From Ideonella aquatica (lineage in GTDB: Bacteria; Pseudomonadota; Gammaproteobacteria; Burkholderiales; Burkholderiaceae_C): a stretch of 64,000 nucleotides of DNA. The notes below the pieces were generated by a model, which did not search any database, was not told the DNA's origin, and worked only from the letters and a program-made list of their open reading frames with translations. The position numbers were made by a program, and so were the translations under genes. Location of the stretch: assembly GCF_018069755.1 (NCBI RefSeq), contig NZ_JAGQDE010000001.1, positions 310,001 through 374,000 of the forward strand. Reading direction: 5' to 3'. Below are positions 22,495-55,965 of this stretch, one piece after another (the first letter of the stretch is position 1; every line of letters starts with the position of its first letter).

Positions 22495-23021
22495 CAGTGG
22501 CTGTGGGGGTGGCCGTGACCGCCATGGGTGTGGCTGTGGCCGTCGTGGTCATGGCCATGGTCGCCGTAAGCGCCGCCCTCGGGCTCGAAGGGCGCCTCGC
22601 AGTACGCCACCGACAGACCCAGGCCACCCAGCATCTCGGCCAGCACGGGGTCGGGCTCGAAGAGCAAGGCGTCGGGGGTGAGTGCCAGCGGCACATGGCG
22701 GTTGCCCAGGTGGTAGGCGGCGCGCAGCAGGTCAAACGGTGTGCCGCCTTCACGCACCTGCACGCGCATCACCGGCTGCGGCGCGGCCTCGATGCGCAGC
22801 AGCACGCCATCCTCGGCCACCAGCACATCGCCGCCGCGCAGCACCTGGCCGCGCGGCAGCACCACCAGCACGCGCTCGCCCTGTGCGGTGTGCGCGTCGA
22901 AGCGGCTTTTCTGGCGGGTGTCCCAGTCCAGCGCCAGCACGCCGGCACGGGCCAGCACGGGCGCGGCCAGACGGGTGCCGCGCGGCAGGCGGCGGCTGTA
23001 GAGCCGGGCGTCGGGGCTCAC
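22494..23021 (-). CDS. ureE: Urease nickel metallochaperone UreE with His-rich tail
   Basis: Cytoplasmic nickel carrier, 175 residues. The N-terminal half has the UreE pattern ([27 protein letters not shown] in outline). The C-terminal half carries [15 protein letters not shown], whose His residue binds nickel at the dimer interface. The last 25 or so residues are a histidine-rich tail alternating His with Gly, Asp, Ser and Thr (11 His), as in nickel-storing UreE variants. It overlaps the GNAT gene by 4 bases and ureF by 1 base. Confidence 0.97.
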
Positions 23022-23494
23022 AGGTGGCGCTGCATGTAGCGGCTGAACGGGTCCAGCGTGTAGTCGTCGAAGGGCCCGCAGTCCACAAAGCCGGCCGACA
23101 GGTACAGGCCATGCGCGGGCTCGAAGTACGGGCCGGTGCCAGTCTCCAGCAGCAGTTGCTGCAGGCCCAGGCTGCGGCCGAAGGCGATCAGGTGCTGCAG
23201 CATCTGCCGACCCAGGCCGTGGCCGCGCAGATCGGCGCGCGAGCGCATGGACTTGAGCTCGCCGCGCGTCATGTCCAGGCGCTTGAGCGCGCCGGTCACC
23301 ACCAGCTCATCCCCAGCGGGCGTGTCGTACCAGCCGGTGAAGAAGCTGATCTCGGGGCGGCGCAGCTGGGCCATGTCCAGCGCGTGCACGCTCTCGGGCG
23401 GCGAGGTGGCGTGCATGTCGGCCAGGTGCTCGTTCATGAAGGCCTCGATGCGCGGGTCGCTGAGGTCGTCCTGGCGGATGCGGAGCAGGGGCAT
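23018..23494 (-). CDS. GNAT-family N-acetyltransferase inside the urease operon
   Basis: Predicted acetyl-CoA-dependent acetyltransferase of 158 residues. The acetyl-CoA-binding motif A is RADLRGHGLGRQMLQHLIAF (R-x-x-G-x-G/A loop) near residue 88. It is followed by LLLETGTGPYFEPAHGLYLSAGF, typical of the YhfR/PhnO-like subgroup. It lies between ureC (8-base gap) and ureE (4-base overlap), so it is co-translated with the urease genes. It is not a known urease accessory factor. The substrate is not evident; a nitrogen compound or a protein target would be a guess. Confidence 0.88.
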   Translation of the reverse strand: MPLLRIRQDDLSDPRIEAFMNEHLADMHATSPPESVHALDMAQLRRPEISFFTGWYDTPAGDELVVTGALKRLDMTRGELKSMRSRADLRGHGLGRQMLQHLIAFGRSLGLQQLLLETGTGPYFEPAHGLYLSAGFVDCGPFDDYTLDPFSRYMQRHL

Positions 23495-23502
23495 GGGGCG
23501 GC

Positions 23503-25241
<1,739 letters not shown>

Positions 25242-25242
<1 letters not shown>

Positions 25243-25547
25243 CACAGCGCTCCTTGCACCAGACCGCGGAAGCCCCAGACCGCGCGGTCGCCCGCGTAGT
25301 CCACCAGTTCCACCGTGCGCTGCTGGCCCGGCTCGAAGCGCACCGCGGTGCCGCTGGCGATGTTCAGCCGCATGCCGTGGGCTGCCGCGCGGTCGAAGCG
25401 CAGCGCGCCGTTGGTCTCGGCGAAGTGGTAGTGCGAGCCCACCTGGATCGGGCGGTCGCCAGTGTTCTCGACCACCAGCGTCAGCGTGCGGCGGCCGGGG
25501 TTGAGGTCGATCTCGCCGGGATCGGTCAGCAGTTCACCTGGAATCAT
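25242..25547 (-). CDS. ureB: Urease subunit beta
   Basis: Structural subunit of the UreABC trimer, 101 residues, starting MIPGELLT as in most bacterial UreB proteins. The core [18 protein letters not shown] and the segment [17 protein letters not shown] are conserved, and it ends with FRGLVQGAL. An upstream in-frame extension is possible but adds only non-conserved residues, so the ATG at 25547 is used. It follows ureA by 31 bases. Confidence 0.97.
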
Positions 25548-25578
25548 TCGGGGGCTCCGTGGCACCTGATTGGTGCAA

Positions 25579-25881
25579 TCAGGCAATGGGTTGGTGCACG
25601 GTCACCAGCTTGGTGCCGTCAGGGAAGGTGGCCTCGACCTGGATCTCGGGGATCATCTCGGGCACGCCGTCCATCACCTGGCCGCGGCTGAGCACGGTCT
25701 TGCCGGCGCTCATCAGCTCGGCCACGCTGCGGCCGTCGCGCGCGCCTTCCAGGATGGCCGCGGTGATCAGTGCCACGGCCTCGGGGTAATTGAGCTTCAG
25801 CCCGCGGGCCAGCCGGCGCTCGGCCAGCAGCGCGGCGGTGAAGATCAGCAGCTTGTCCTTCTCGCGGGGGGTGAGGTCCAT
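25579..25881 (-). CDS. ureA: Urease subunit gamma
   Basis: Smallest urease structural subunit, exactly the expected 100 residues, from [14 protein letters not shown] through [10 protein letters not shown] to TVHQPIA. It is the first gene of the ureABC-GNAT-EFG operon. A well-matched sigma-54 promoter sits at 25915-25930, giving a predicted leader of about 20-25 bases. Regulation by nitrogen through RpoN is therefore likely. The transporter-kinase fusion gene starts divergently 106 bp away. Confidence 0.98.
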
Positions 25882-25914
25882 GGCATCGGTGGTTCAGGCG
25901 ACAGCGTCGATTGC

Positions 25915-25930
25915 AGCAAGGCCAATGCCA
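25915..25930 (-). promoter_or_regulatory. Sigma-54 (RpoN) promoter of the urease operon
   Basis: Read on the minus strand the site is TGGCATTGGCCTTGCT, with the invariant GG and GC separated by exactly 10 bases. It differs from the consensus TGGCACR-N4-TTGCW by one pyrimidine change. The GC lies about 35 bases before the ureA start, the right place for a -12 element. RpoN promoters need an activator such as NtrC. I did not find an obvious NtrC site within the short divergent spacer. Confidence 0.75.
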
Positions 25931-25986
25931 TCTGTCCAGCGGGCGGTCCAGGCTGGTGCGTTTCTTGATGGCAGACGGGGCTTGCC

Positions 25987-28900
25987 ATGGATGCCGCCAC
26001 CCCGCCCGTCGCCCCCCGCCCGCAGCAGGTCATCCCGATCCGCCGCGACTACAACGCCTGGGTGGCCAGCGAGACGCTGGAGGACTATGCGCTGCGCTTC
26101 ACGCCGCGCTCGTTCCGCAAATGGAGTCCCTGGCGGGTGGCCAACACCGCGTTTGGTGCCGCGTCTTTCCTGGTGCTGGAGGCGGTGGGGGCGACACTGC
26201 TGGTGCAGCACGGCTTCGTCAATGCCTTCTGGGCCATCCTGGCCACCGGGCTGGCGATCTTCCTGGCCGGCTGGCCGATCAGCGTCTACGCGGCGCGCCA
26301 TGGCGTGGACATGGACCTGCTCACCCGCGGTGCCGGTTTCGGCTACCTGGGCTCCACCGTCACCTCGCTGATCTACGCCAGCTTCACCTTCATCTTTTTC
26401 GCCCTCGAGGCGGCGATCATGGCCTACGCGCTGGAGCTGGTGGCCGACATCCCGCCGGCCTGGGGTTATCTGCTCTGTGCGCTGGTGGTGATTCCGCTGG
26501 TGGCGTATGGCGTCACCGCGCTGTCCAGGCTGCAGGTCTGGACGCAGCCACTGTGGCTGGCGATGCTGGTGCTGCCCTACATCGCCGTCCTCCAGGCGCA
26601 CCCGGACTGGTGGCAGGGTCTGCAGGGTTTTTCAGGCCAGTCCGGCGGTGCGGGCTTTGACCTGCTGTCCTTTGGTGCCGCCACCACAGTGGGCATGGCG
26701 CTGATCACCCAGATGGGCGAGCAGGTCGACTACCTGCGCTTCATGCCCGAGCCCCGGCCGGGCCAGCGCGCCCGCTGGTGGCTGGCGGTGGCGGCCGGCG
26801 GTCCGGGCTGGGTGATTCCTGGCGTGCTGAAGATGCTGGGCGGCGCGCTGCTGGCCTGGCTGGCGCTGCAGCAGATGGTGCCGCCCGACCGCGCCGTCGA
26901 TCCCAACCAGATGTACCTGCTGGCCTGGGAGCAGGTGCTGGGTCACTACCACTGGGCGGTGGCGGCCACCGCGGTGTTTGTGGTGGTGTCGCAGCTGAAG
27001 ATCAACGTCACCAACGCCTACGCCGGCTCGCTGGCCTGGTCCAACTTCTTCTCGCGCGCCACCCACAGCCACCCGGGGCGGGTGGTGTGGATGGTGTTCA
27101 ACCTGCTGATCGCGCTGATGCTGATGGAGCTCAGCGTGTTCCAGGCGCTGGAGCGGGTGCTGGGCCTGTTCGCCAACCTGGCGATCAGCTGGCTGATGGC
27201 GGTGGTGGCCGACCTGGTGATCAACAAGCCGCTGGGCTGGAGCCCCAAGGGCATCGAGTTCCGCCGCGCCTACCTGCACGACATCAACCCGGTGGGTGTG
27301 GGCGCGATGGGCCTGGCCTCGGTGCTGTCGATGGCGGCGCACCTGGGCGCCTTCGGGCCGCTGGCGCAGGCCTTTTCGGCGCTGGTGGCGGCGGTCACGG
27401 CCTTCTGCGCGGCGCCGGCCATCGCCTGGGCCACGCGCGGCCGCTACTACCTGGCGCGCGACCCGGCTGAAGACGGCGGCCGCTACCTGGGCGCCGCGCT
27501 GCACCGCTGCCTGGTCTGCGAGCGCGACTACGAGGCCGACGACATGGCCGGCTGCCCGGCCTACGGCGGCCCGATCTGCTCGCTGTGCTGCACGCTCGAT
27601 GCCCGCTGCCAGGACCGCTGCAAGCCCACACCGCGCATCAGCGACGCGGTCTGGGGCCGCTGGCGCGGTGCGCTGCGCCGTCTGCTGCCGCGCGCCTGGG
27701 CCGGCCAGGTCGACACCGGCCTGGGCCAGTACCTGCTGATGATGGCGGTGCTGGTGCCGCTGCTGGGCGGCCTGGCGGCACTGCTGGTGCGCCTGGCGCG
27801 CTCGGGGCAGGACGGCTACTGGCAGGTCTTTGCGACCATGCTGCTGCTGGCCGCGGTGGTGGCCTGGTGGCTGGTGCTGGCGCAACGCAGCCGCGCCGTG
27901 GCCCAGGAGGAGACCGAGCGCCAGACTGATGCGCTGGTGCGCGAGATCGACTCGCACCGCCAGACCGACCTGGCGCTGCAGGCCGCCAAGCGCCTGGCCG
28001 ATGCCGCCAACCAGGCCAAGACGCGCTACATCACGGCGGTCAGCCACGAGCTGCGCACACCGCTCAACAGCATCCTCGGCTACGCCCAGCTGCTGGGCGA
28101 TGACCCGGCCATCCCGGCGCAGCGCCGCCCGGCGGTGGAGGTCATCCGCCGCGGCGGCGAGCACCTGCTGGGCCTGATCGAGGGCACGCTGGACATTGCT
28201 CGCATCGAGAGCGGCAAGCTGAGGCTGGACGTGCGCCCGATGCGGCTGCGCGAAGCCATCCGCGAGCTGGTCACGCTGTTCGAGCAGCAGGCGCAGGCCA
28301 AGGGCATCGGCTTTGCCGTCATCGGCGTCGATGCCCTGCCTGAGGCGGTGCGCGCCGACGAGCGCCGTCTGCGCCAGATCCTGATCAACCTGCTGGGCAA
28401 CGCGGTGAAGTTCACCCGCCACGGCCAGGTCACGCTGCGCGCCGCCTACAGCGGGCAGATGGCCCGCTTCGAGGTGGTGGACACCGGACCGGGCATGGAC
28501 ACTGCCGAGGTGGCGCGCGTCTTCGAGCCCTTCGAGCGCGGTAGCGCTGCCGGTGGGAGCGCCGCCGGCGGCACCGGCCTGGGCCTGACGATCAGCCGCA
28601 TGCTGACCGGCCTGATGGGCGGCGAGCTGACGCTGGACAGCACGCCCGGCCAGGGCAGCATCTTTCGCCTGAAGCTCTTCCTGCCAGAGGTGGCCGGTGC
28701 CCACAGCGCACCGGCGGGCCGCGTTCGCCATGCCGGCTATGCCGGGCCGCGCCGCACGCTGCTGGTGGTCGATAACGAGGAGGCCGATCGCCAACTGCTG
28801 GCCGACCTGCTGCAACCGCTGGGCTTCACGATCGAGGCGGCCGGCAGCGGCGAGGCCGCCCTGGCGCGCCTGGCCTCACTGAAGCCCGACGCGATTTTCA

Positions 28901-29370
28901 TGGACCTGGCGATGCCCGGCATCGACGGCTGGGAGACCATCCGCCGCCTGCGCGCCCAGGGCCTGAGCCGGGCGCCGCTGGCGGTGGTCTCGGCCAACGC
29001 CTTTGATCGCGCGCTGGACCACGACGTGGACCTGCCGCCCGAGGACTTCCTGGTCAAGCCCGTGCGACTGGACGACCTGCTGGCCTGGCTGGAGCGGCGC
29101 CTGCAGCTGCAGTGGATAGCCGCGCCGCCGCCTACCGCGCCACCGCCACCGGCGCCCGAGACACCCCCGCCCGCTGCCGCGCTGCAGCGACTGAACGAGC
29201 TGGTGGGCCTGGGCTACCTGCGCGGCATCACCCAGGAGCTCGACCGCCTGGAGGCCGCGCACGCGGACAGCGCCGCCTTCATTGCACGATTGCGCGGCCT
29301 GGCGCGCGGCTTCCAGCTCGACGCGCTGGCCGACACCCTGAAGAAAGCCCTGAATGAGCCCGCCGTCTGA
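25987..29370 (+). CDS. NCS1-type transporter fused to hybrid histidine kinase/response regulator
   Basis: Membrane sensor of 1127 residues. Residues about 25-500 look like a full NCS1 (purine-cytosine/allantoin permease) carrier with some 12 membrane segments (TRGAGFGYLGSTVTS, LSFGAATTVGMALITQMGE, LKINVTNAYAGSLAWSNFFSR). A cysteine cluster with seven or more Cys follows at 508-548 (CLVCERDYE, CSLCC, CQDRC). Two more membrane segments span 580-632, then a HisKA domain with phospho-accepting His in AVSHELRTPLNS near 685, and a HATPase (NLLGNAVKF, GTGLGLTISRM). The receiver at 924-1050 has Asp in FMDLAMPGIDG, and a helical tail follows. It is divergent from ureA, and its end overlaps the response-regulator gene by 17 bases. 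It probably senses a nitrogenous solute. Confidence 0.88.
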   Translation: MDAATPPVAPRPQQVIPIRRDYNAWVASETLEDYALRFTPRSFRKWSPWRVANTAFGAASFLVLEAVGATLLVQHGFVNAFWAILATGLAIFLAGWPISVYAARHGVDMDLLTRGAGFGYLGSTVTSLIYASFTFIFFALEAAIMAYALELVADIPPAWGYLLCALVVIPLVAYGVTALSRLQVWTQPLWLAMLVLPYIAVLQAHPDWWQGLQGFSGQSGGAGFDLLSFGAATTVGMALITQMGEQVDYLRFMPEPRPGQRARWWLAVAAGGPGWVIPGVLKMLGGALLAWLALQQMVPPDRAVDPNQMYLLAWEQVLGHYHWAVAATAVFVVVSQLKINVTNAYAGSLAWSNFFSRATHSHPGRVVWMVFNLLIALMLMELSVFQALERVLGLFANLAISWLMAVVADLVINKPLGWSPKGIEFRRAYLHDINPVGVGAMGLASVLSMAAHLGAFGPLAQAFSALVAAVTAFCAAPAIAWATRGRYYLARDPAEDGGRYLGAALHRCLVCERDYEADDMAGCPAYGGPICSLCCTLDARCQDRCKPTPRISDAVWGRWRGALRRLLPRAWAGQVDTGLGQYLLMMAVLVPLLGGLAALLVRLARSGQDGYWQVFATMLLLAAVVAWWLVLAQRSRAVAQEETERQTDALVREIDSHRQTDLALQAAKRLADAANQAKTRYITAVSHELRTPLNSILGYAQLLGDDPAIPAQRRPAVEVIRRGGEHLLGLIEGTLDIARIESGKLRLDVRPMRLREAIRELVTLFEQQAQAKGIGFAVIGVDALPEAVRADERRLRQILINLLGNAVKFTRHGQVTLRAAYSGQMARFEVVDTGPGMDTAEVARVFEPFERGSAAGGSAAGGTGLGLTISRMLTGLMGGELTLDSTPGQGSIFRLKLFLPEVAGAHSAPAGRVRHAGYAGPRRTLLVVDNEEADRQLLADLLQPLGFTIEAAGSGEAALARLASLKPDAIFMDLAMPGIDGWETIRRLRAQGLSRAPLAVVSANAFDRALDHDVDLPPEDFLVKPVRLDDLLAWLERRLQLQWIAAPPPTAPPPPAPETPPPAAALQRLNELVGLGYLRGITQELDRLEAAHADSAAFIARLRGLARGFQLDALADTLKKALNEPAV

Positions 29371-30322
29371 GTCGCCCACCGACCTGCTCGATGCTGGCGA
29401 CGCCGACGTGGTGCTGGTGGTCGACGACGTGCCCGACAACCTGGCCGTGCTGCACGACGCATTGGATGAATCCGGCTACACGGTGCTGGTCGCCACCCAC
29501 GGCGAGGCCGCGCTGGAGCGTGCGCGCCAGGCCCGGCCGCACCTGGTGTTGCTGGATGCGGTGATGCCGGGCATGGACGGCTTCGAGGTGGCCCGTCGCC
29601 TGAAGGCCGATCCGGCCACCGCCGCCATCCCGATCGTCTTCATGACCGGCCTGACCGATGCCGAGCATGTGGTGCAGGCCTTTGCCGCCGGCGGCATCGA
29701 CTACGTCACCAAGCCGCTGCGCCCGCGCGAGGTGCTGGCGCGCATTGCCGCCCACCTGCGTGCCGCCCGCGCCCAGGCGCAGGCGCGCAATGCGCTGGAC
29801 GCCTTCGGCCACGCCACGCTGGTGCTGCGCCAGCGCGACGGCCGCCGGCTGTGGCAGACCGCGCTGGCCCGCCAGCTGCTGCGCGAGCACTTTCCCGAGG
29901 TGCCCGACGAGCAACTGCCCGCCCCGTTGCTGACCTGGGTGCAGGAGGTGGTGCCCGAGGCCGCCACGTCTGCGCCCACGCGCCAGCTACAAACGCCGCG
30001 CGGCCGCTTGACGCTGGCCCTGCACCCGATGGGCGAGGACGATGGCACGCCCGGCACCGACGGTGAATGGCTGCTGGTGCTGCGCGAGGCCAGCGAGGCC
30101 GCGCTGATGCTGGCCCTGGCCCAGGCCTTTCCGCAGCTCACCGCGCGTGAGCGCGAGGTGCTGTACTGGGTGGTCCAGGGCAAGACCAACCGCGACATCG
30201 GCGACATCCTGGGCACCAGCCCGCGCACCGTTCACAAGCACCTCGAGCATGTTTTTGAGAAGCTGGGTGTGGAAACCCGCACAGCGGCGGCGGGTGTGGT
30301 GATGGCGCGGATGGGGCGCTGA
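29354..30322 (+). CDS. Response regulator with receiver, novel middle domain and LuxR helix-turn-helix
   Basis: Cytoplasmic DNA-binding response regulator of 322 residues. The receiver spans about 18-135 with acidic pocket VVDDV, phospho-Asp68 in LLDAVMPGMDG, Thr98 and Lys120. A middle domain (about 147-245, DAFGHATLVLRQRDGRRLWQ) does not match a domain I can name and recurs in the protein at 19149-19721. The C-terminal LuxR-type HTH reads LTAREREVLYWVVQG followed by TSPRTVHKHLEHVFEKLGVE. It overlaps the transporter-kinase gene, so it is almost certainly the cognate partner. Likely targets are the urease and urea-transport genes, by proximity only. Confidence 0.9.
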   Translation: MSPPSESPTDLLDAGDADVVLVVDDVPDNLAVLHDALDESGYTVLVATHGEAALERARQARPHLVLLDAVMPGMDGFEVARRLKADPATAAIPIVFMTGLTDAEHVVQAFAAGGIDYVTKPLRPREVLARIAAHLRAARAQAQARNALDAFGHATLVLRQRDGRRLWQTALARQLLREHFPEVPDEQLPAPLLTWVQEVVPEAATSAPTRQLQTPRGRLTLALHPMGEDDGTPGTDGEWLLVLREASEAALMLALAQAFPQLTAREREVLYWVVQGKTNRDIGDILGTSPRTVHKHLEHVFEKLGVETRTAAAGVVMARMGR

Positions 30323-30364
30323 TCGGTAACATCTCGGTAACAAGACGTCGGGCAATCGGTAACA
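30323..30364 (+). promoter_or_regulatory. Three direct repeats TCGGTAACA in 11-bp phase before the BTAD regulator
   Basis: TCGGTAACA occurs at 30323-30331, 30334-30342 and 30356-30364, with start-to-start distances of 11 and 22 bp. Direct repeats on an 11-bp multiple are the characteristic binding pattern of SARP/OmpR-type winged-helix activators. The gene starting 45 bp downstream encodes a protein with such an N-terminal domain, so autoregulation is a reasonable inference. Confidence 0.7.
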
Positions 30365-30409
30365 CTTCGAAAGCCGGCGCGGCGTGCCGTCGTGACCGCT
30401 TGCCTGTCG

Positions 30410-33400
30410 ATGAACCCACCACCTGAATCCGCTCCCATCCGTCTGCGTCTGGGCCTGCGTCCCTCGCTGCTGTCCGCCGATGGGCAAGAGCTGGCGCTGT
30501 CGCGCAAGGATGCCGCGTTGCTGGCGATGCTCGCTGTTGAGGGCGCTTGCGCCAAGGACCATCTGGCCGCGATGCTGTGGCCCGACGCCGACAGCCAGCG
30601 CTCGCGCCTGAGCCTGCGCCAGCGGCGCTTTCGCCTGGCTCGGGCTGCGGGTGTGCCGGTGGTGGTGGGCGAGGACACGCTGAGCCTGAATCCCGCCGTG
30701 GTCACACAGCTGCAGGCCTTCGACGAACCGGGCGACGCATGGCCTGAGACCGAGCTGCTGGGCAGTCAGACCTTCGACGATTGCCCCGACTTTCAACGCT
30801 GGCTGCAGGGCGCCCGCCCGGCCTGGCGGCGCCGCATCACCACTCGGCTGGAGCAGCATGCCGAGGCGCTGGAGGCCGAGGGCCGACTGGTCGAAGCCCT
30901 GGCCTTGGCGCGCCGTCTGGCCGAAGACGAGCCCCTGTCCGACCGGGCGCACCGCCGCCTGATCTGGCTGCACTACCTGCGAGGTGACCTGGGCCGCGCG
31001 CTGGGCGAGTACAAGGCCTTCTGCGACCGTCTGGCCGAGGAGCTGGGTGAGCTGCCTGACGACGCCACCGGCGAGCTGGTGGCCCGCATTCGGCTGGGCG
31101 AGTTCAGCGATGCCGCAGCCCGCACGGCCCCCAGCGATGCCCCCCGGCAGTGGCCCTTCGTCGGTCGCGACGCCGAACTGGGCGCACTGCATCAGGCCTG
31201 GTCCGACCGCCGACCGATGCTGGTCGAAGGCATGCCTGGCATTGGCAAGACGCGTCTGATCGGTGAGGCGCTGCGCGCCCAGGCCGGCTGCTGCTGCCTG
31301 CATGTGCCGGTGTTCGCCGGTGAGCGTCACCGAACCTACGCCGTGCTGGCGCGTTTGTTGGCCAACCTGTGGCTGGGGCCGTCAGCGCTGAGGCCCCAGG
31401 GGCATCTTGACTTGCCTGATTGGGCCCGCAGCGAGCTGGCTGCGTTGTTGCCCGAGCTGCACCCCAAGCGCCAGGCCGAGCTGCGGCCGCTGGGCCTGCA
31501 GCGCGCGCTGGAGTGCGCGCTGTCCCAGGCCGGCCCCGATCTGGTGGTGATTGACGATCTGCAGCAGGCTGACCAGGCCACACTGGAACTGCTTCCCGCG
31601 CTCAGCCGCCCCGGCCTGCCGCCCTGGTGGCTGGTCTGTCGCAAAGGGGAGCGACCGGCGGAGATCGATGCCTGGCTGCAGGCGTCGCCGGCGCCGCAGG
31701 TGATCGAGCTGCAGCCGCTGGACCAGTCGGCCGTCGCCGTGTTGCTCGCCCATGCCTCACCCCATAGCGCCCCGAACGGCTCGGCGGCTTCCATCCTGCG
31801 CTCATCGGGCGGCGTGACCTTTCTGGTGGTGGAGCTGATCAAGGCGATGGCCGAGGGGCGCATGCCCGTCGGCGACGGCACGCCCCAGGGCGCTGCGCAC
31901 TTCATCCGCTCGCGCGAGGCCTCGCTGGATGCCACGGCTCGGCAGATGGCACGCACGGCAGCGGTCCTGCGTGCGCCGCTCACAGCCGCCGCCGCGGCCG
32001 CGATCTGGGACACGGCCGAAGCGCCCTGGCAGGAGGCTTTGCGACATCTGGAGGCGGTGCATTGGGTGGACGCGCAATTGCGCATGCACGACCTGGTGGC
32101 CAGCGCCCTGTATGAGGCCCTGCCACAGGCCGAGCGGCGCGCCTTGCATGCCCGCCTGGCGGCCTGGATGGAGCGCGAGGGTCACCCACCGGCCGATGCC
32201 GCCCAGCACCATGAAGCCGCCGGCCAGCCGGCGCAGGCTGCACCGTTGTTCGAGCGCGCAGCCGCCGAGGCCGCCCGGGCCTGCCGGGTGGCCGAACAAG
32301 CGTGTTTCCAGCGCAGTGCGGCCGAGGCTTGGCAGGCCTGCGGACGCCATGACGAGTCCTTCGAGGCGCTGCGCGCCAGCCTGGATCCGCTGCTGATGGG
32401 ACTGGGCGCCGAGGCCGCTTTGCCGGTGGCTCAGCAGATGCTGGCCCAGGCCCGTGGCCCGCTGCAGCATGTCCAGGCCCACATCGCGCTGGCAGAACTC
32501 GACAACCACCTGGGCCGCTATGCGGATGCCGACGCGCGCGCCGCCCGTGTGCAGCCCGTCGCCCAGTCGCTGCAGGATGTCGACGCCTGCATCCAGCTGG
32601 GGGCTCACCGCGCGTATGCGCTGGTGTCACTGTCCCGACTGGCCGAGGCCACCGAGATCCTGGCGCAGCTGGAGCCCCTGCTCGAGAAGGCCACCCCGCT
32701 GGTGCGCAAGGAGTACGTCGAGGCCCAGGCCGTGGTGTGCTGGCGTGCCGGCCAGCTGGGCCGCTGCGCCGAATACACCCAGACCGCGCTGGACCTGCAG
32801 TTGGCCTGCGGACGCTGGGCCGGTGCGCTGGTGCAGGCCAGCAATCTGGCGGCGATCCAGACCCTGCGTGGGCGCTTTCGCCAGGCCGATGAGCTGCTCA
32901 ATGCCAGCCTGGCGTGGCGAGACATGCTCGGGCCGCTGGAAGGCCACACCGTGGCCGGCCTGGACACGGTGCGGGCCTGGATCGACATTGGCCTGGGCCA
33001 CGCGGCCGATGCGCTGGCCACCGCCCGCCGCGCGCTGGGCTTCTACCAGGGCGCCAGCGCCTTGGACCGCATCGCGGCGCACGCCACCGAGACGCTGGCA
33101 CGCATCCACCTGGCGCTGGGTCAGGTGGATGAGGCCCGTGCGGTCCACGCCCCGCTGGCGGCGGTGCTGCTGCCGGTGCAGGGGACGCGTGGCTGGCTGC
33201 TGGCCGCGGCCATCGAACGGGCCGCCGGGGGCGACGCCCAGCCCGCGCTGGACCAGGCCGCGTCATTGGCCGCGCAGGCCAGCGATACGCGGCTGCTGCA
33301 ACTGAGGTTGGCGGCCGAGCGCCTGTGCAGCGGCCGCGAGCCGCCGTCGCCAGCGGATCTGGCGGCGGTCGAAGGCCAGGCCCTCGAGTGCGAGCAGGAC

Positions 33401-33892
33401 GCGCTGGCCGCACGCCTGGCCTGGCACCGCGTGGGCGTGTTGCTGGACCGGGGCGATGCTGCCGCGGCGGCCGAGCTGGCGCGCCGTCTGCTGGACAGCC
33501 CGGCCTGGCCCGAGGACATCCTGCCCTGCCACTGGCAGTGGCTGGGCGCGCTGACCCTGCAGCTCGTGGGCGACGCCCAGGCCCCGGTGTGGCAGCAACG
33601 TGCCGAGGCTGCGCTGGCACGCACATGCCAGGATCTGCAGGGGGGATGGCCCACGCCAGCCTGGCCACGCTTTGCCCATCTGCAGGCGGCGGTGGCAGCG
33701 TGGCCGGCGCCGACCGACCGCCTCAGCGCTTGTCCAGCACCAGACCGCGCCGCTCCAGCAGTGGCTCGAGGCGCGGCTCGTGGCCGACCAGGTGACGGAA
33801 CAGGTCCATCGCGTCCTCGCTGCCGCCGCGCGACAGCAGCTTGTCGCGCAGCGCATCGCCGTTCTCGCGTGTCAGGCCGCCGTTGGCCATGA
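30410..33892 (+). CDS. SARP/BTAD-type regulator with ATPase and TPR-like repeats
   Basis: Large cytoplasmic regulator of 1160 residues. An OmpR-like winged helix at about 10-95 (LSRKDAALLAMLAVEG, LLWPDA-like MLWPDADSQRSRLSLRQRRF) is followed by a bacterial transcriptional activation domain at about 105-235. A STAND-type ATPase follows, with P-loop VEGMPGIGKTRLIG near residue 275 and Walker B-like LVVIDDLQQADQATL. A long alpha-helical TPR-like section spans about 600-1095. The ATG at 30410 is preferred over the upstream GTG at 30392 because conserved sequence begins right after it. The last 56 residues overlap the convergent M3 peptidase gene and look non-native. The inducing signal is unknown. 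Confidence 0.85.
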   Translation: MNPPPESAPIRLRLGLRPSLLSADGQELALSRKDAALLAMLAVEGACAKDHLAAMLWPDADSQRSRLSLRQRRFRLARAAGVPVVVGEDTLSLNPAVVTQLQAFDEPGDAWPETELLGSQTFDDCPDFQRWLQGARPAWRRRITTRLEQHAEALEAEGRLVEALALARRLAEDEPLSDRAHRRLIWLHYLRGDLGRALGEYKAFCDRLAEELGELPDDATGELVARIRLGEFSDAAARTAPSDAPRQWPFVGRDAELGALHQAWSDRRPMLVEGMPGIGKTRLIGEALRAQAGCCCLHVPVFAGERHRTYAVLARLLANLWLGPSALRPQGHLDLPDWARSELAALLPELHPKRQAELRPLGLQRALECALSQAGPDLVVIDDLQQADQATLELLPALSRPGLPPWWLVCRKGERPAEIDAWLQASPAPQVIELQPLDQSAVAVLLAHASPHSAPNGSAASILRSSGGVTFLVVELIKAMAEGRMPVGDGTPQGAAHFIRSREASLDATARQMARTAAVLRAPLTAAAAAAIWDTAEAPWQEALRHLEAVHWVDAQLRMHDLVASALYEALPQAERRALHARLAAWMEREGHPPADAAQHHEAAGQPAQAAPLFERAAAEAARACRVAEQACFQRSAAEAWQACGRHDESFEALRASLDPLLMGLGAEAALPVAQQMLAQARGPLQHVQAHIALAELDNHLGRYADADARAARVQPVAQSLQDVDACIQLGAHRAYALVSLSRLAEATEILAQLEPLLEKATPLVRKEYVEAQAVVCWRAGQLGRCAEYTQTALDLQLACGRWAGALVQASNLAAIQTLRGRFRQADELLNASLAWRDMLGPLEGHTVAGLDTVRAWIDIGLGHAADALATARRALGFYQGASALDRIAAHATETLARIHLALGQVDEARAVHAPLAAVLLPVQGTRGWLLAAAIERAAGGDAQPALDQAASLAAQASDTRLLQLRLAAERLCSGREPPSPADLAAVEGQALECEQDALAARLAWHRVGVLLDRGDAAAAAELARRLLDSPAWPEDILPCHWQWLGALTLQLVGDAQAPVWQQRAEAALARTCQDLQGGWPTPAWPRFAHLQAAVAAWPAPTDRLSACPAPDRAAPAVARGAARGRPGDGTGPSRPRCRRATAACRAAHRRSRVSGRRWP

Positions 33893-50189: not shown

Positions 50190-50287
50190 GCGCAGCACTC
50201 TACGCCAGTGTGCGTATGGTCGGTCCGGGCGGCGGCTTCTAACCTGCGGGCACTGATTCACCCCCAACCCCTCCGAGGAGCACCCGC

Positions 50288-51553
50288 ATGCAATTCACCC
50301 GCCGTTCCATCACCGCGCTGGCCGCCGCCGCCTGCGCGCTCGGCTTCACCACGCTGGCCCAGGCCGCCGACACCATCAAGGTGGGCGTGCTGCACTCGCT
50401 GTCGGGCACGATGGCGATCTCGGAAACCGTGCTGAAGGACACCGTCCTGATGGCCATCGACGAGATCAACGCCAAGGGCGGCCTGCTGGGCAAGAAGCTC
50501 GAGCCGGTGGTGGTGGATCCGGCCTCGAACTGGCCGCTGTTCGCCGAGAAGGCCAAGCAGCTGATCGACCAGGACAAGGTGGCCGTGGTCTTCGGCTGCT
50601 GGACCTCGGTGAGCCGCAAGTCGGTGCTGCCGGTGTTCGAGGAAAAGAACTCGCTGCTGTTCTACCCGGTGCAGTACGAAGGCGAAGAGCTGAGCAAGAA
50701 CGTGTTCTACACCGGTGCCGCGCCCAACCAGCAGGCGATTCCCGCGGTGGAGTACCTGATGAGCAAGGACGGCGGCTCGGCCAAGCGCTTCGTGCTGCTG
50801 GGCACCGACTACGTCTACCCGCGCACCACCAACAAGATCCTGCGCGCCTTCCTGAAGGCCAAGGGCGTGGCCGAGTCGGACATCATGGAGGAGTACACCC
50901 CCTTCGGCCACTCCGACTACCAAAGCATCATCGCCAAGATCAAGAAGTTCGCCTCCGAAGGCAAGAAGACCGCGGTGGTCTCCACCATCAATGGCGACTC
51001 CAACGTGCCCTTCTACAAGGAACTGGGCAACCAGGGCCTGAAGGCGACCGACGTGCCGGTGGTGGCCTTCTCGGTGGGTGAAGAGGAACTGCGTGGCGTG
51101 GACACCAAGCCGCTGGTCGGCCACCTGGCTGCCTGGAACTACTTCATGAGCATCAAGAACCCGGCCAACGCCGAGTTCGTCAAGAAGTGGAGCGACTACG
51201 CCAAGGCCAAGGGCATCGCCGGCCACAAGGACAAGCCGTTGACCAATGACCCGATGGAAGCCACCTACATCGGCATCAACATGTGGGCCCAGGCCGTGAC
51301 CAAGGCCAAGTCCACCGACACCGACAAGGTGATCGCGGCGATGGCCGGCCAGACCTTCAAGGCGCCGGGCGGCTTCACCAGCACGATGGACAAGGAAAAC
51401 CACCACCTGCACAAGCCGGTGTTCATCGGTGAGGTCAAGGCCGATGGCCAGTTCAACGTGGTGTGGAAGACCCCGGGTCCGGTCGTGGCCGATCCGTGGA
51501 GCGACTACATCGCCGAGAACAAGGGCAAGAAGAACGTCCCCGAGAAAAAGTAA
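50288..51553 (+). CDS. urtA: Urea ABC transporter substrate-binding protein
   Basis: Periplasmic urea-binding protein of 421 residues. A signal peptide (MQFTRRSITALAAAACALGF ending AQA) is followed by DTIKVGVLHSLSGTMAISE, the standard start of UrtA-type type 1 binding proteins. VFGCWTSVSRKSVLPVFEE and VEYLMSKDGG are strongly conserved in UrtA. GAGGAG lies about 7 bases before the ATG. It heads the urtABCDE operon. The gene has lower GC at wobble positions than the overlapping shadow frames, consistent with a highly expressed gene. Confidence 0.97.
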   Translation: MQFTRRSITALAAAACALGFTTLAQAADTIKVGVLHSLSGTMAISETVLKDTVLMAIDEINAKGGLLGKKLEPVVVDPASNWPLFAEKAKQLIDQDKVAVVFGCWTSVSRKSVLPVFEEKNSLLFYPVQYEGEELSKNVFYTGAAPNQQAIPAVEYLMSKDGGSAKRFVLLGTDYVYPRTTNKILRAFLKAKGVAESDIMEEYTPFGHSDYQSIIAKIKKFASEGKKTAVVSTINGDSNVPFYKELGNQGLKATDVPVVAFSVGEEELRGVDTKPLVGHLAAWNYFMSIKNPANAEFVKKWSDYAKAKGIAGHKDKPLTNDPMEATYIGINMWAQAVTKAKSTDTDKVIAAMAGQTFKAPGGFTSTMDKENHHLHKPVFIGEVKADGQFNVVWKTPGPVVADPWSDYIAENKGKKNVPEKK

Positions 51554-51624: not shown

Positions 51625-51689
51625 GCGGTGGCTGCCGGAAGGCGCGGGCGGCTTCGCCGACCCGCGTTTTCGTTTGCTGAGGGCATGTG

Positions 51690-53264
51690 ATGATTCGTTG
51701 GATGGTGGGCCTTGGTCTGGCGCTGTCGGCCTGGAGTGCTTCGGCGCTGACGGCGGAGCAGGCGCGGGCGATTGCGGCGGGGGAGACTGATGCGCGGATT
51801 GCGGCGCTGGGCGAGGCGGCCAAGCAGCCGGATGCGGCGCTGGCGGGCTTTGTGCAGGCGCTGCTGGAGGATGCGGTCAAGCTGACGCCCAAGGCGGTGC
51901 TGGTGGTCGATGGCGCGGCGGTCAAGGATGCCGTGACCGGGGCGGCGGCGACGCTGCCCGACGACGCCGAGGACGTGGTCAACAACAACCGCATGCGCGG
52001 CGCGCTGCAGGCGGTGCAGGCGTCGATGAAGCTGCTGTCGCCGGAGCTGGCGGTGCGCCAGGCGGCGGTGGCCGAACTGGCCAAGGGCGGCGTCGATGAA
52101 GCCCAGTTGCCATTGCTGGACAAGGCGGTCGAGGCCGAGCCGGATGCGGCGCTGAAGGCCACGCTGGGCCGGCTGCGCGCCAGCGTGCTGGTGGCGTCGG
52201 CCGATGCCGCCAAGCGGCTGACGGCGGTGAAGGAGCTGTCTGTCAGTGGTGAGCCCACGGTCAAGGCGCTGCTGCAGGAACGCCTGGCCGTCGAGACCGA
52301 TGCCGAGGTCAAGGGCGCGCTGATGAGCGCGATCGGCCAGGTCGAGTCGCGCCTGGCCTGGGGTGAGCGCCTGGGCGTGGTGTTCACCGGCGTCAGCCTG
52401 GGCAGCATCCTGCTGCTGGTGGCGCTGGGCCTGGCGATCACCTATGGCCTGATGGGCGTGATCAACATGGCCCACGGCGAGCTGATGATGATCGGCGCCT
52501 ACGCCACCTACGTGGTGCAGAACCTGTTCCGCGCCTATGCGCCGGACGTCTTCGACTATTACCTGTGGCTGGCGGTGCCGGCCTCGTTCCTGGCGGCGGC
52601 GCTGGTGGGCGCGGTGCTGGAGCGCACGGTGCTGCGCTGGCTCTACGGCCGGCCGTTGGAGACGCTGCTGGCCACCTGGGGCATCTCGCTGGTGCTGATG
52701 CAGGGCGTGCGCTCGCTGTTCGGTGCGCAGAACGTGCCGGTGGAGAACCCGGCCTGGCTGTCGGGCGGCATCGCGGTGCTGCCCAATCTGACGCTGCCCT
52801 ACAACCGCATCGCCATCATCGGCTTCGCCTTCGCGGTGCTGGCCGGTGTGGCCCTGCTGATCGCCCGCACCCGGCTGGGCCTGTTCGTGCGCGGCGTCAC
52901 GCAGAACCGCCGCATGGCCGCCTGCGTGGGCATCCACACCGCGCGCATCGACACCTACGCCTTCTCGCTGGGCGCCGGCATCGCCGGGCTGGCCGGCTGT
53001 GCGCTCAGCCAGGTGGGCAACGTCGGCCCGGACCTGGGCCAGAGCTACATCGTCGACAGCTTCATGGTGGTGGTGCTGGGCGGCGTGGGCCAGCTGGCCG
53101 GCACGGTGTACGCCGCGCTGGGGCTGGGTGTGCTGAACAAGTTCCTGGAAGGCTGGGCCGGTGCGGTGCTGGCCAAGATCATGGTGCTGGTGTTCATCGT
53201 GGTGTTCATCCAGAAGCGTCCGCAAGGGCTGTTCGCGATGAAGGGCCGAAGCGCCGAGGCATGA
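51690..53264 (+). CDS. urtB: Urea ABC transporter permease UrtB
   Basis: Inner-membrane permease of 524 residues. It is longer than LivH because UrtB carries an N-terminal signal-like segment and a periplasmic helical-repeat domain of about 220 residues (here residues 20-225). The LivH-like permease follows from about 230: VALGLAITYGLMGVINMAHGELMMIGAYATY, then a C-terminal ALIVLGGVGQLAGTVYAA-type segment. ATG 51690 is used; a GTG one codon earlier is possible. It is separated from urtA by 136 bp holding hairpins. Confidence 0.96.
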   Translation: MIRWMVGLGLALSAWSASALTAEQARAIAAGETDARIAALGEAAKQPDAALAGFVQALLEDAVKLTPKAVLVVDGAAVKDAVTGAAATLPDDAEDVVNNNRMRGALQAVQASMKLLSPELAVRQAAVAELAKGGVDEAQLPLLDKAVEAEPDAALKATLGRLRASVLVASADAAKRLTAVKELSVSGEPTVKALLQERLAVETDAEVKGALMSAIGQVESRLAWGERLGVVFTGVSLGSILLLVALGLAITYGLMGVINMAHGELMMIGAYATYVVQNLFRAYAPDVFDYYLWLAVPASFLAAALVGAVLERTVLRWLYGRPLETLLATWGISLVLMQGVRSLFGAQNVPVENPAWLSGGIAVLPNLTLPYNRIAIIGFAFAVLAGVALLIARTRLGLFVRGVTQNRRMAACVGIHTARIDTYAFSLGAGIAGLAGCALSQVGNVGPDLGQSYIVDSFMVVVLGGVGQLAGTVYAALGLGVLNKFLEGWAGAVLAKIMVLVFIVVFIQKRPQGLFAMKGRSAEA

Positions 53265-53265
53265 G

Positions 53266-54393
53266 ATGACGACGACGACTCTGAACCTTCCCGCGCCGCG
53301 CCGCGGCCTGCTGCTCACCCCCGCCGGCTGGTCCGGCGTGCTGCTGGCCACGCTGGTGGTGACCGCGCTGGTGCCGGTGCTGAACCTGCTGGTGCCAGCC
53401 GACAGCGTGTTCCACCTCAGCGACTTCTATGTGCAGCTGGCCGGCAAGATCATGTGCTACGCGATCTGCGCGCTGGCCATGGACCTGATCTGGGGCTACA
53501 CCGGCATCCTCAGCCTGGGCCACGGCCTGTTCTTCGCGCTGGGCGGCTACGGCATGGGCATGTACCTGATGCGCCAGATTGGCCGCGACGGCAACTACCA
53601 GAGCGACCTGCCCGACTTCATGGTCTTCCTGGACTGGAAGGCGCTGCCCTGGCACTGGGCCTGGAGCGACAGCTTTGCGCTGCAGATGCTGCTGGTGCTG
53701 GTGGTGCCGGGCCTGCTGGCCTTCGTGTTCGGCTTCTTCGCCTTCCGCAGCCGCATCAAGGGCGTGTACTTCAGCATCATCACGCAGGCCATGACCTTCG
53801 CGGCGATGCTGCTGTTCTTCCGCAACGAGACCGGCTTCGGCGGCAACAACGGCTTCACCGACTTCAAGCGCATCCTGGACATCCCGATCGCCCAGCCGTC
53901 CACCCGCATGGTGCTGTTCGTCATCACCGGTCTGACGCTGATCGGCTTCTACCTGATGGCCCGCGCCATCGTGAACAGCAAGTTCGGCCGCGTGCTGCAG
54001 GCGATCCGCGATGCCGAGAGCCGCGTGATGTTCACCGGCTACAACCCGCTGGCCTACAAGCTGGCGATCTGGACGCTGAGTGCCGTGATGTGCGGCGTGG
54101 CGGGTGCGCTCTATGTGCCGCAGGTGGGCATCATCAACCCGGGCGAGATGAGCGCGGCGGCCTCGATCGAGATCGCCATCTGGGCCGCGGTGGGCGGTCG
54201 CGCCACGCTGATCGGGCCGATCGTCGGCGCCTTCTTCGTCAATGGTGCGAAGAGCTGGTTCACGCAGGTGTTCCCCGAGTTCTGGCTGTATTTCCTGGGC
54301 GCGCTGTTCATTGCGGTGACGCTGTTCCTGCCGCAGGGATTGGTCGGCCTGGTGGACCGCCTGAAGGGCGCGAAGAAGGAGGAGCGCGCATGA
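53266..54393 (+). CDS. urtC: Urea ABC transporter permease UrtC
   Basis: Second inner-membrane permease, 375 residues, LivM-like. It carries LIWGYTGILSLGHGLFFALGGYGMGMYLMR, the UrtC-specific insertion with GNYQSDLPDFMVFLDW, and NNGFTDFK, then ALYVPQVGIINPGEMSAAAS and AAVGGRATLIGPIVGAFFVN near the end. It starts one base after the urtB stop and overlaps urtD by 4 bases (ATGA). Confidence 0.97.
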   Translation: MTTTTLNLPAPRRGLLLTPAGWSGVLLATLVVTALVPVLNLLVPADSVFHLSDFYVQLAGKIMCYAICALAMDLIWGYTGILSLGHGLFFALGGYGMGMYLMRQIGRDGNYQSDLPDFMVFLDWKALPWHWAWSDSFALQMLLVLVVPGLLAFVFGFFAFRSRIKGVYFSIITQAMTFAAMLLFFRNETGFGGNNGFTDFKRILDIPIAQPSTRMVLFVITGLTLIGFYLMARAIVNSKFGRVLQAIRDAESRVMFTGYNPLAYKLAIWTLSAVMCGVAGALYVPQVGIINPGEMSAAASIEIAIWAAVGGRATLIGPIVGAFFVNGAKSWFTQVFPEFWLYFLGALFIAVTLFLPQGLVGLVDRLKGAKKEERA

Positions 54394-55271
54394 CGCCCGA
54401 CCTGATGGAAGCCGGCGCCAAGGCGCTGGAGGCGCACCGCGCCAAGGTGGAGGCCGAGGTCACCAGCGGCGACCGCGGCGCCAGCTTCGGCCGCGTGCTG
54501 CACGGTGCCGAGCCCGACTTCGCACACGGCGTGGCGCTGTACCTGGACGACATCACGGTCAGCTTCGATGGCTTCCGGGCGCTGAACGCGCTGAGCCTGG
54601 CGGTCAACGTGGGCGAGCTGCGCTGCATCATCGGCCCCAACGGTGCCGGCAAGACGACGATGATGGACGTCATCACCGGCAAGACCCGGCCCGATGCCGG
54701 CACCGCCAGCTTCGGCTCCAACATCGACCTGCTGCGCCTGCGCGAGAACGAGATCGCGCAGATCGGCATCGGCCGCAAGTTCCAGAAGCCCACGGTCTAC
54801 GAGCAGCTCAGCGTGTTCGAGAACCTGGAGCTGGCGCTCAAGGCCGACCGCCGCGCGCGCGCCAGCCTGTTCTCGCGCCTGTCGGGTGCGCAACTGGACC
54901 GCATCGGCGAGATCCTGCAGCTGATCCACCTGCTGCCCGATGCCCAGCGCACCGCCGGCCTGCTCAGCCACGGCCAGAAGCAGTGGCTGGAGATCGGCAT
55001 GCTGCTGATGCAGGACCCCAAGCTGCTGCTGCTGGATGAGCCGGTGGCCGGCATGACCGACGAAGAGACCGAGCGCACCGCCGAGCTCTTCCTGAGCCTG
55101 GAGGGCCAGCATTCGCTGGTGGTGGTGGAGCACGACATGAAGTTCGTCGACCAACTGACCGAGGGCCGCAAGACGGTGACCGTGCTGCACGAGGGCAGCG
55201 TGCTGGCCGAGGGCCTGCTGCGCGACGTGCAGGCGAACGAGAAAGTGGTCGAGGTCTACCTGGGACGATGA
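54390..55271 (+). CDS. urtD: Urea ABC transporter ATPase UrtD
   Basis: LivG-like ATPase of 293 residues. A 45-residue N-terminal extension is followed by YLDDITVSFDGFRALN, Walker A IIGPNGAGKTTMMD, the Q-loop QKPTVYEQLSVFENL, the UrtD-typical signature region LLSHGQKQWLEIGMLL and Walker B LLLLDEPVAGM. The ATG at 54390 overlaps the urtC stop. An alternative is a shorter start near VALYLDD, but the long form keeps the coupled overlap. Confidence 0.96.
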   Translation: MTPDLMEAGAKALEAHRAKVEAEVTSGDRGASFGRVLHGAEPDFAHGVALYLDDITVSFDGFRALNALSLAVNVGELRCIIGPNGAGKTTMMDVITGKTRPDAGTASFGSNIDLLRLRENEIAQIGIGRKFQKPTVYEQLSVFENLELALKADRRARASLFSRLSGAQLDRIGEILQLIHLLPDAQRTAGLLSHGQKQWLEIGMLLMQDPKLLLLDEPVAGMTDEETERTAELFLSLEGQHSLVVVEHDMKFVDQLTEGRKTVTVLHEGSVLAEGLLRDVQANEKVVEVYLGR

Positions 55272-55272
55272 G

Positions 55273-55965
55273 ATGCTGAAGGTCGAAGGTCTGAACCAGT
55301 ACTACGGCGGCAGCCACATCCTGCGCGGCGTCTCCTTCGAGGCGCGCCTGGGCGAGGTCACCGTGGTGCTGGGCCGCAACGGCGTGGGCAAGACCACGCT
55401 GCTCAAGAGCCTGATGGGCGTGGTGCCGGTGAAGACCGGCACGGTGCAACTGGATGGACGCGAACTGACGCGGTCCACCCCGTATGAGCGGGTGCGCGCC
55501 GGCATGGGCTATGTGCCACAGGGCCGCGAGATCTTCGGCCGCCTGACGGTGGAGGAGAACCTGCGCATGGGCCTGGCCAGCCGGCCGGCGGGCACCAAGA
55601 TCCCGGACGAGCTGTTCACGCTGTTCCCGGTGCTCAAGCAAATGATCGCCCGTCGCGGCGGGGACCTGTCGGGTGGCCAGCAGCAGCAACTGGCGATCGC
55701 CCGCGCGCTGGCGCCGGGCCCGAAGCTGCTGATCCTGGACGAGCCCACCGAGGGCATCCAGCCCAGCATCATCAAGGACATCGGCCGCGTGATCCGCATG
55801 CTGGCCGACCGCGGCGACATGGCCATCGTGCTGGTCGAGCAGTACTACGACTTTGCCGCCGAGCTGGCCGACCAGTACCTGGTGATGGAGCGCGGTGAGA
55901 TCATCGCCCGCGGCCGTGGCGAGGACATGCAGGCCAACGGCGTGCGCGAGCTGATGTCGATCTGA
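55273..55965 (+). CDS. urtE: Urea ABC transporter ATPase UrtE
   Basis: LivF-like ATPase of 230 residues completing the importer. It carries LNQYYGGSHILRGVSFE, Walker A VLGRNGVGKTTLLKSLMG, Q-loop YVPQGREIF, signature LSGGQQQQLAIARAL, Walker B LLILDEPTEGIQPSI and the switch region VLVEQYYDFA. It starts one base after the urtD stop. It ends 15 bp from a convergent small coiled-coil gene. Confidence 0.97.
   Translation: MLKVEGLNQYYGGSHILRGVSFEARLGEVTVVLGRNGVGKTTLLKSLMGVVPVKTGTVQLDGRELTRSTPYERVRAGMGYVPQGREIFGRLTVEENLRMGLASRPAGTKIPDELFTLFPVLKQMIARRGGDLSGGQQQQLAIARALAPGPKLLILDEPTEGIQPSIIKDIGRVIRMLADRGDMAIVLVEQYYDFAAELADQYLVMERGEIIARGRGEDMQANGVRELMSI

Follow-up and report, generated by a model that had tools for sequence, protein, structure and literature searches.

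Introduction

Histidine kinases fused to transporter domains have been described with SLC5 domains, as in CbrA and CrbS, and with Amt domains (PMC7918813, PMC13022988, PMC5764959), and RpuS is reported as a further SLC5-type fusion of this sort. The term NCS1 does not occur in the main text of these three papers. Here we analyzed a stretch of 64,000 nucleotides from Ideonella aquatica (contig NZ_JAGQDE010000001.1 of assembly GCF_018069755.1, positions 310,001 to 374,000 of the forward strand), referred to as the window, in which a gene at 25987..29370 (+) encodes a hybrid sensor histidine kinase with an N-terminal membrane domain resembling in predicted fold the NCS1 carriers (presumably TC 2.A.39). 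To our knowledge, bacterial sensing of external urea is poorly known. We propose from the sequence, with a probability of roughly 0.68, that this kinase is a transporter-derived receptor for urea or related small amides, and that its response regulator would activate the urea ABC transporter genes urtABCDE.

The kinase shares with the SLC5/STAC kinases (CbrA, CrbS/MxtR, RpuS) a LeuT-fold transporter domain joined to a histidine kinase and a likely place in nutrient gene regulation, but its fold is nearest to NCS1 and it carries an eight-cysteine module and an extra helix hairpin. No SSF or PAS match was obtained in its Pfam scan, and none to STAC, for which Pfam may hold no model; with the NCS1-like fold, this agrees with the earlier note on this DNA, which had set the protein apart from the SLC5-type CbrA family. 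Ks-Amt5 is similar in that a transporter is reused as the nitrogen-compound receptor of a kinase, but its Amt domain is coupled straight to the kinase without PAS, HAMP or STAC, and the accessible text describes no receiver (PMC5764959). The carriers Mhp1, CodB, AllW and MetT differ from the window protein in its fused kinase.

One member of the family is already in print. The pair SMb20609/SMb20610 of Sinorhizobium meliloti belongs to it (46% identity over 1136 columns), with urtA-E divergent and the regulator downstream. The accessible part of the report presents SMb20609 as a direct PhaR target that lacks functional characterisation and shares its protein module with UreA and UreB (PMC12542648), and we found the published PhaR motif where that report places it. 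A 2026 genome paper mentions, for Ectopseudomonas, a second urt operon accompanied by a hybrid kinase and a LuxR regulator (PMC13296017), a pair that may belong to the same family. Among the literature matches listed, from a coverage that mostly leaves out subscription journals, no title or abstract described an NCS1-type kinase or its regulator. Transporter-kinase fusions are known as a kind, and the NCS1-like version with a urea/amide context would be a further variety of it.

Domain order of the kinase

The open reading frame begins with ATG and encodes 1127 amino acids in which domains were assigned by Pfam, predicted fold and conservation (all on the + strand). The NCS1-like LeuT-fold domain covers approximately residues 27-500 (26065..27486) and is followed by the eight-cysteine module C-x2-C-x11-C-x7-C-x2-CC-x5-C-x3-C (residues 508-545; 27508..27621) and by two further helices predicted in the AlphaFold model (578-603 and 608-627; 27718..27867), which probably span the membrane. 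Pfam then matched HisKA (678-743; 28018..28215) with a conserved H687, HATPase_c (791-899; 28357..28683) and REC (926-1034; 28762..29088), the complement of a hybrid histidine kinase, while residues 1-677 had no Pfam match and no HPt domain was found by Pfam in the kinase. The parts named in the earlier note, a fused transporter, a cysteine cluster, two more membrane segments (here predicted helices), a kinase and a receiver, were thus all recovered in a single protein. A chance product is not a tenable explanation of the fusion, since relatives of residues 1-628 are encoded by 464 stretches in GTDB genomes. The one from Ideonella alba (L011), to which the genome of the window is close, is 97% identical across these residues.

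Two sets of homologues were used. The near relatives are the best 80 of the 464 stretches, picked for similarity. The conservation table has 138 rows, the window kinase and 137 of 145 kinase places, with L157 removed by name and L002, L021, L131, L134, L152, L155 and L171 removed for a length outside 1000-1300 aa. Mean conservation was 0.81 in the cysteine module, 0.77 in HisKA, 0.76 in the membrane domain, 0.69 in HATPase, 0.62 in REC and 0.56 in the hairpin. A variant arrangement was observed at L134:7397-11346, where an 894-aa kinase without REC precedes a second protein made up of REC, HisKA and HATPase; a gene of the FmdA family lies close by.

Fold and family of the membrane domain

The five best PDB matches of both AlphaFold models (mean pLDDT 68.6 and 77.1, pTM 0.66 and 0.81) were Mhp1 and CodB entries (Foldseek; E 1e-7 to 9e-6), and the second model, itself of moderate confidence, gave TMq values of 0.62-0.64 against them. 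SLC5-type structures ranked below NCS1, with the urea transporter DUR3, which we take to be SLC5-type, placed 8th-9th with the second model. Direct sequence proof of NCS1 membership was sought and failed. PF02133 did not match the window kinase at E<=1 or the 31 rows of alignment A1 at E<=10, nor did it match anything in the whole genome of the organism, and hhalign of the kinase profile to CodB or AllW alone returned probabilities of 5.9 and 1.3. A PDB profile search with the kinase returned no transporter, its sole, non-significant match (E 3) being the splicing factor CWC24, which we take to be a RING protein.

The connection in sequence instead runs through a stand-alone relative at L112:3949-5442 (497 aa), a bridge between the kinase membrane domain and NCS1. 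This protein matches PF02133 above the cut-off (E 3.6e-9) and TIGR00800 at E 2.5e-16, yet with 59 of 353 bits, far under the model cut-off, and it aligned to the kinase profile A1 over 447 columns (residues 27-501 of the kinase; hhalign probability 99.9, E 3.4e-32). A PDB search with L112 returned one weak, unrelated match. Its gene adjoins one that reads, by eye, as a tandem carbon-nitrogen hydrolase. A second stand-alone relative, on an Arthrobacter plasmid (L155:8935-10611, 558 aa), has no kinase, a degenerate cysteine region and no Pfam match, PF02133 included; its gene diverges from a bioB-like gene (bio names assigned by eye). We regard the membrane domain as NCS1-like by predicted fold and not by direct family match. 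The full NCS1-type carrier of the earlier note therefore holds for the fold, with Mhp1 and CodB as best PDB matches, and the domain search that it proposed confirmed HisKA, HATPase and REC and not PF02133.

Response regulator, neighbouring genes and distribution

Directly downstream of the kinase lies a response regulator (29354..30322, +) with REC, a middle region and a GerE/LuxR-type helix-turn-helix, both named domains being matched by Pfam as in NarL/LuxR-type regulators; the LuxR partner claimed earlier is present. The regulator is directly downstream in 75 of the 77 near relatives having at least 1 kb of downstream sequence, and adjacent at 49 of 55 places in a sample of 398 Pseudomonadota genomes (author-set threshold). 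Four of the six misses have a regulator without the middle region; two (L131, L134) do not. At L167-L170, tblastn finds the regulator REC and helix-turn-helix and not the middle region. Elsewhere in the window, a 190-aa protein (19149-19721, +) matches the regulator's output half with 35% identity across 181 aligned positions; it has no receiver and no Pfam match, is 91% conserved in I. alba L011, and is possibly a receiver-less paralogue.

To the left of the kinase, ureA (25579..25881, -; PF00547, Urease_gamma) diverges from it, as the earlier note had stated, followed by ureB (25242..25586, -; PF00699), ureC (23503..25245, -; PF00449/PF01979) and, beyond ureC, ureE, ureF and ureG. The urt genes begin 20 kb downstream of the regulator with urtA, the urea ABC substrate-binding protein (50288..51553, +; TIGR03407 above cut-off), and continue with urtB, urtC, urtD and urtE (51687..55965, +), of which urtB, urtC and urtE were assigned by Pfam families and urtD by position and by its match to plasmid genes annotated urtD. 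Among near relatives, ureA was divergent within 6 kb in 60 of the 72 with at least 0.7 kb upstream, and urtA was found downstream in 27 of the 62 with at least 8 kb.

The membrane part matched in 53 of the 398 sampled genomes. A census that left aside the window, a stand-alone gene in G193 and a fragment in G236 covered 56 homologue places from 51 further Pseudomonadota genomes. Of these, 54 lie by urease, urt or formamidase genes, so the neighbourhood survey suggested in the earlier note came out in favor of the association. These labels come from tblastn with author-set thresholds, the FmdA and AmiF queries being taken from L142 and L153. Fmd (fmdA/amiF-type) genes flanked 37 places (35 of which also have urtA), urease genes 12, urt genes only 5 and none of these 2, both of the latter cut by contig ends. 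The urease (ure) and fmd contexts swap at least 4 times on a quick 75-row tree. Since fmdA/amiF-type genes are the neighbours at 37 of the 56 places and urease genes at 12, urea together with formamide and short-chain amides is the better reading of the ligand class, and we consider such a ligand probable.

Plasmid records matched the membrane part in 532 of 72,556 cases (342 from Klebsiella), a few of them, such as that of Arthrobacter, stand-alone and kinase-less. A nitrilase-fmdB-formamidase-ABC cluster faces the kinase-regulator pair on a B. vietnamiensis plasmid, formamidase-urtEDCBA accompanies the pair on a K. pneumoniae plasmid, urt genes lie by the kinase on an S. medicae plasmid, and urease clusters do so in Mitsuaria, Novosphingobium and Methylovirgula plasmid records. 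On the K. pneumoniae plasmid L153 (CP052559.1), formamidase-urtEDCBA and the kinase-regulator pair lie approximately 4 kb from sul2 and aph genes. The kinase homologues are commonly annotated merely as 'ATP-binding protein'.

The eight-cysteine module and the source of the signal

All eight cysteines (508, 511, 523, 531, 534, 535, 541 and 545) are present in 138 of 138 rows, with fixed spacing in 135, and no other region of the protein is as conserved as this module. When residues 496-628 were searched against 150 genomes, 14 of them yielded a total of 15 matches, every one at places of the NCS1-like kinase family, and no other host of the module was found among these 150 genomes. The hints of a RING family, Prok-RING_1 (E 1.1 at best, in 2 of 31 rows) and the CWC24 match above, are not significant. 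A metal or Fe-S site is likely. Should the carrier have 12 helices and both termini inside, the module would be cytoplasmic and the last two helices would lead the chain back to the kinase.

The invariance of this module could be taken to mean that the kinase reads redox state or a metal through its cysteines, or a shared product and nitrogen status (ammonium), with the NCS1-like domain as a mere anchor. Ammonia is indeed the common product of urease and formamidase. The amount of SMb20609 would moreover be controlled by carbon storage state if it is a direct PhaR target, as reported in the accessible text (PMC12542648). However, conservation in the membrane domain matches that of HisKA and exceeds that of HATPase and REC, which is unexpected for an anchor, and one kinase of each type, ure and fmd, coexists in G158, G225, G246 and G379, which would be needless under a common nitrogen signal. 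We consider this explanation quite improbable and the membrane domain rather likely to act as the sensor.

The predicted pocket

In CodB, cytosine is sandwiched by Trp108 and Phe204 and sodium is bound by Gly29, Phe32, Asn275, Thr278 and Thr279; the accessible text states that the two aromatics are conserved throughout NCS1, mostly as Trp in TM3 and Phe or Trp in TM6 (PMC9379551). Equivalent residues were taken from alignment A2, whose rows are 16-28% identical to the first row and which may be one residue off in places. CodB R216 aligns with R251. Unlike in CodB, the kinase family has F137 at the Trp108 position (Phe in 130 of 138 rows, Leu in 8), L239 at Phe204, and I339/N340 at the Na2 pair T278/T279, next to an invariant K338. 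The aromatic sandwich is thus not retained, the TM3 position being aromatic but not Trp, and neither is the Na2 threonine pair of TM8. By sequence position, Gln121 of Mhp1 would correspond to E141, four past the TM3 aromatic. The predicted pocket residues F61, E65, T134, E141, L239, Q242, E245, Q246, N340 and N343 are all but invariant, being present in 137 or 138 of the 138 rows.

Without the stacking pair, the site would suit a small acyclic ligand; MetT is an example of an NCS1 protein carrying acyclic metformin, though its pocket is described as aromatic in the accessible text (PMC13390362). With the sandwich and the Na2 residues lost, sensing of nucleobases, hydantoin or allantoin is unlikely, and we rejected these ligands, mainly on the residues and also on neighbours that are urea/amide genes, purine and allantoin neighbours not having been searched for. 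From the list in the earlier note, urea is retained, its gene context extending far beyond this one genome. That note had tied the failure of its proposal to a joint lack of NCS1 substrate-site residues and of urea or purine genes around homologues; the TM6 aromatic and the Na2 pair are lost, while the gene association is present. We also searched for residues that might switch between urea and formamide. Positions 404, 241 and 63 separate the clades, but independent pairs are too few.

The same domain could still move its ligand, as a true urea or amide transporter whose signalling tracks flux and not binding, and stand-alone relatives (L112, L155) are known. The altered Na2 site would not stand in the way, as CbrA transports histidine with its Na2 residues also lost and is stimulated by a proton and not a sodium gradient, according to the accessible text (PMC7918813). 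On the other side, all 54 sampled places with flanking sequence have urease, urt or formamidase genes nearby, so uptake by the kinase looks redundant, and Ks-Amt5 is reported to have lost transport on becoming a sensor (PMC5764959). A CbrA-like transceptor is possible, though we find it doubtful.

A palindrome upstream of urtA

An operator-like palindrome, TACGCCAGTGTGCGTA, lies at 50201..50216 (+), 71 bp before urtA, and is the sole match to TACG-N8-CGTA in the window (1 observed against a shuffle mean of 0.06); the pattern occurs at three places in the 5.17 Mb genome. Dereplication of 104 intergenic regions left 60 between ureA and the kinase and 34 between urtA and the kinase (the fmd/urt set), and shuffles in the intergenic tests permute two-base blocks, not strict dinucleotides. 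The fmd/urt set contains a palindrome of approximately ATACGTCA-NN-TGACGTAT, with TACG-N8-CGTA in 26 of 34, while the commonest dyad in five shuffles reached only 8-10 of 34. The palindrome was found within 400 bp before urtA at 72 of 84 fetched loci, with 91 occurrences in 2.73 Mb overall.

As a control we examined all 134 UrtA places (E<=1e-100) in the 398-genome search. The palindrome preceded urtA at 12 of the 17 places whose genome has a ure/urt-type kinase. It did so at 1 of 29 with an fmd-type kinase only, where it was not of the family form, and at none of the 88 places in genomes that lack the kinase, five of which come from the window's own family or order (Fisher 3e-12 and 2e-6, with kinship ignored). 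An initial count over 110 of these 134 places had given 6/8, 1/23 and 0/79. Even where urtA is far from the kinase, at approximately 100 kb (G019) or 245 kb (G379), the palindrome is retained.

A -10-like TAnnnT was observed 39-44 bases past the palindrome start, with T, A and T in 52%, 81% and 83% of 64 dereplicated sites, and the window has TAACCT at this distance (50240..50245, +). Taking TAACCT as the -10 element, the palindrome would be centred near -43, as for a FixJ/NarL-type activator touching the polymerase.

Another regulator might bind the palindrome, which would then accompany the kinase by descent only; the counts ignore phylogeny, and the site is absent at 5 of the 17 ure/urt-type places (G389, G225, G340, G162, G368). 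Such a history would have to account for the same palindrome in the urtA-kinase intergenics of the fmd/urt set, its presence before distant, unlinked urtA genes and its absence from all kinase-less places, close kin of the window among them, and we judge it very unlikely. Regulation of urt by the kinase-regulator pair is the part of our proposal that we hold with the most confidence, as very likely.

The urease side

The ureA-kinase intergenic region carries a different kind of signal. Elements of the form GGCA-N6-[TC]TGC have the spacing of sigma-54 -24/-12 elements, and a sigma-54-like site of this form, TGGCA-N6-TTGC, points to ureA (25915..25930, -), while a weak and imperfect one, TGGTGC-N5-TTGA, may point to the kinase gene (25954..25969, +). 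The form was found in 51 of 60 ureA-kinase intergenics (43 ureA-ward, 41 kinase-ward), as compared with 37 hits among 1200 doublet-shuffled copies. In the fmd/urt set, 12 of 34 intergenics have it. From these sites, ureA looks sigma-54-dependent. No structured RNA reached Rfam gathering scores in 25000-31000.

Control of the neighbouring ureA, as the earlier note implied, would fit the gene order, with ureA divergent in most near relatives, and 27 of the 60 ureA-kinase intergenics hold a degenerate operator, matching 10 or more of the 16 letters, against 46 of 600 shuffles. But the exact palindrome was found in none of the 60, a search for an operator at the window's own ureA gave at best 8 of 16 letters, and Pfam found no sigma-54 activator domain in the regulator, while the promoter toward ureA is sigma-54-like. 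Direct control of ureA therefore seems unlikely, and with the palindrome before urtA, urtABCDE is the likelier target.

Other features of the window include a ureD-like stretch (63156-63647, -; tblastn E 6e-14) some 37-38 kb from ureA, a GNAT acetyltransferase gene between ureC and ureE (23018-23494, -) with a similar gene in 4 loci, a large BTAD and AAA ATPase protein encoded immediately behind the response regulator (30392-33892, +), and a glycoside phosphorylase-like protein with SOGP domains (1851-5189, -).

Discussion

A proposed model for the pair begins with urea or a short-chain amide bound, and perhaps slowly carried, by the NCS1-like membrane domain. The resulting change would pass through the eight-cysteine module and the terminal two-helix hairpin to the kinase, where H687 would be phosphorylated, and the phosphate would reach the LuxR-type regulator directly or via REC and an unlinked HPt. 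The phosphorylated regulator would bind TACG-N8-CGTA, centred approximately 43 bp before the presumed urtA transcription start, and activate urtABCDE, which in the window lies 20 kb away, or, in the formamidase clade, the urt-fmd operon next to the pair. The sigma-54-type promoters at ureA, and perhaps at the kinase gene, suggest a two-key logic, possibly under NtrC, in which low nitrogen would lead to production of urease and the sensor, and urea would then turn uptake on.

Several observations weigh against this proposal. PF02133 is unmatched by the kinase family, and the AlphaFold models are only moderately confident, the alignment behind them being narrow (Neff 1.7 for A1). The predicted pocket is identical between urease and formamidase contexts, so the pocket alone fails to explain two ligands, and the best-separating positions (e.g. 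404, 241) are backed by no more than 3 supported independent pairs (p>=0.25). Genes of the ure, urt and fmd kinds are absent from five near-relative loci (L003, L019, L020, L031, L057) that extend at least 4.6 kb to either side. To these we add, from above, the Fisher values that ignore kinship, the five urtA places without the palindrome, and the ureA-kinase intergenics, which lack its exact form and are enriched in its degenerate form.

With these points included, we lean towards a third class of transporter-derived sensor kinases, NCS1-like with a private eight-cysteine coupling module, serving in many Pseudomonadota as a dedicated receptor for urea and short-chain amides that gates urtABCDE or the fmd operon through a defined operator. 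If correct, this would provide a candidate urea receptor family together with its regulator, operator and target, and would add a further carrier family to those known in transporter-kinase fusions. It would also show that an NCS1-like scaffold is able to read non-cyclic ligands, and would give a function to proteins annotated as 'ATP-binding protein' and to SMb20609.

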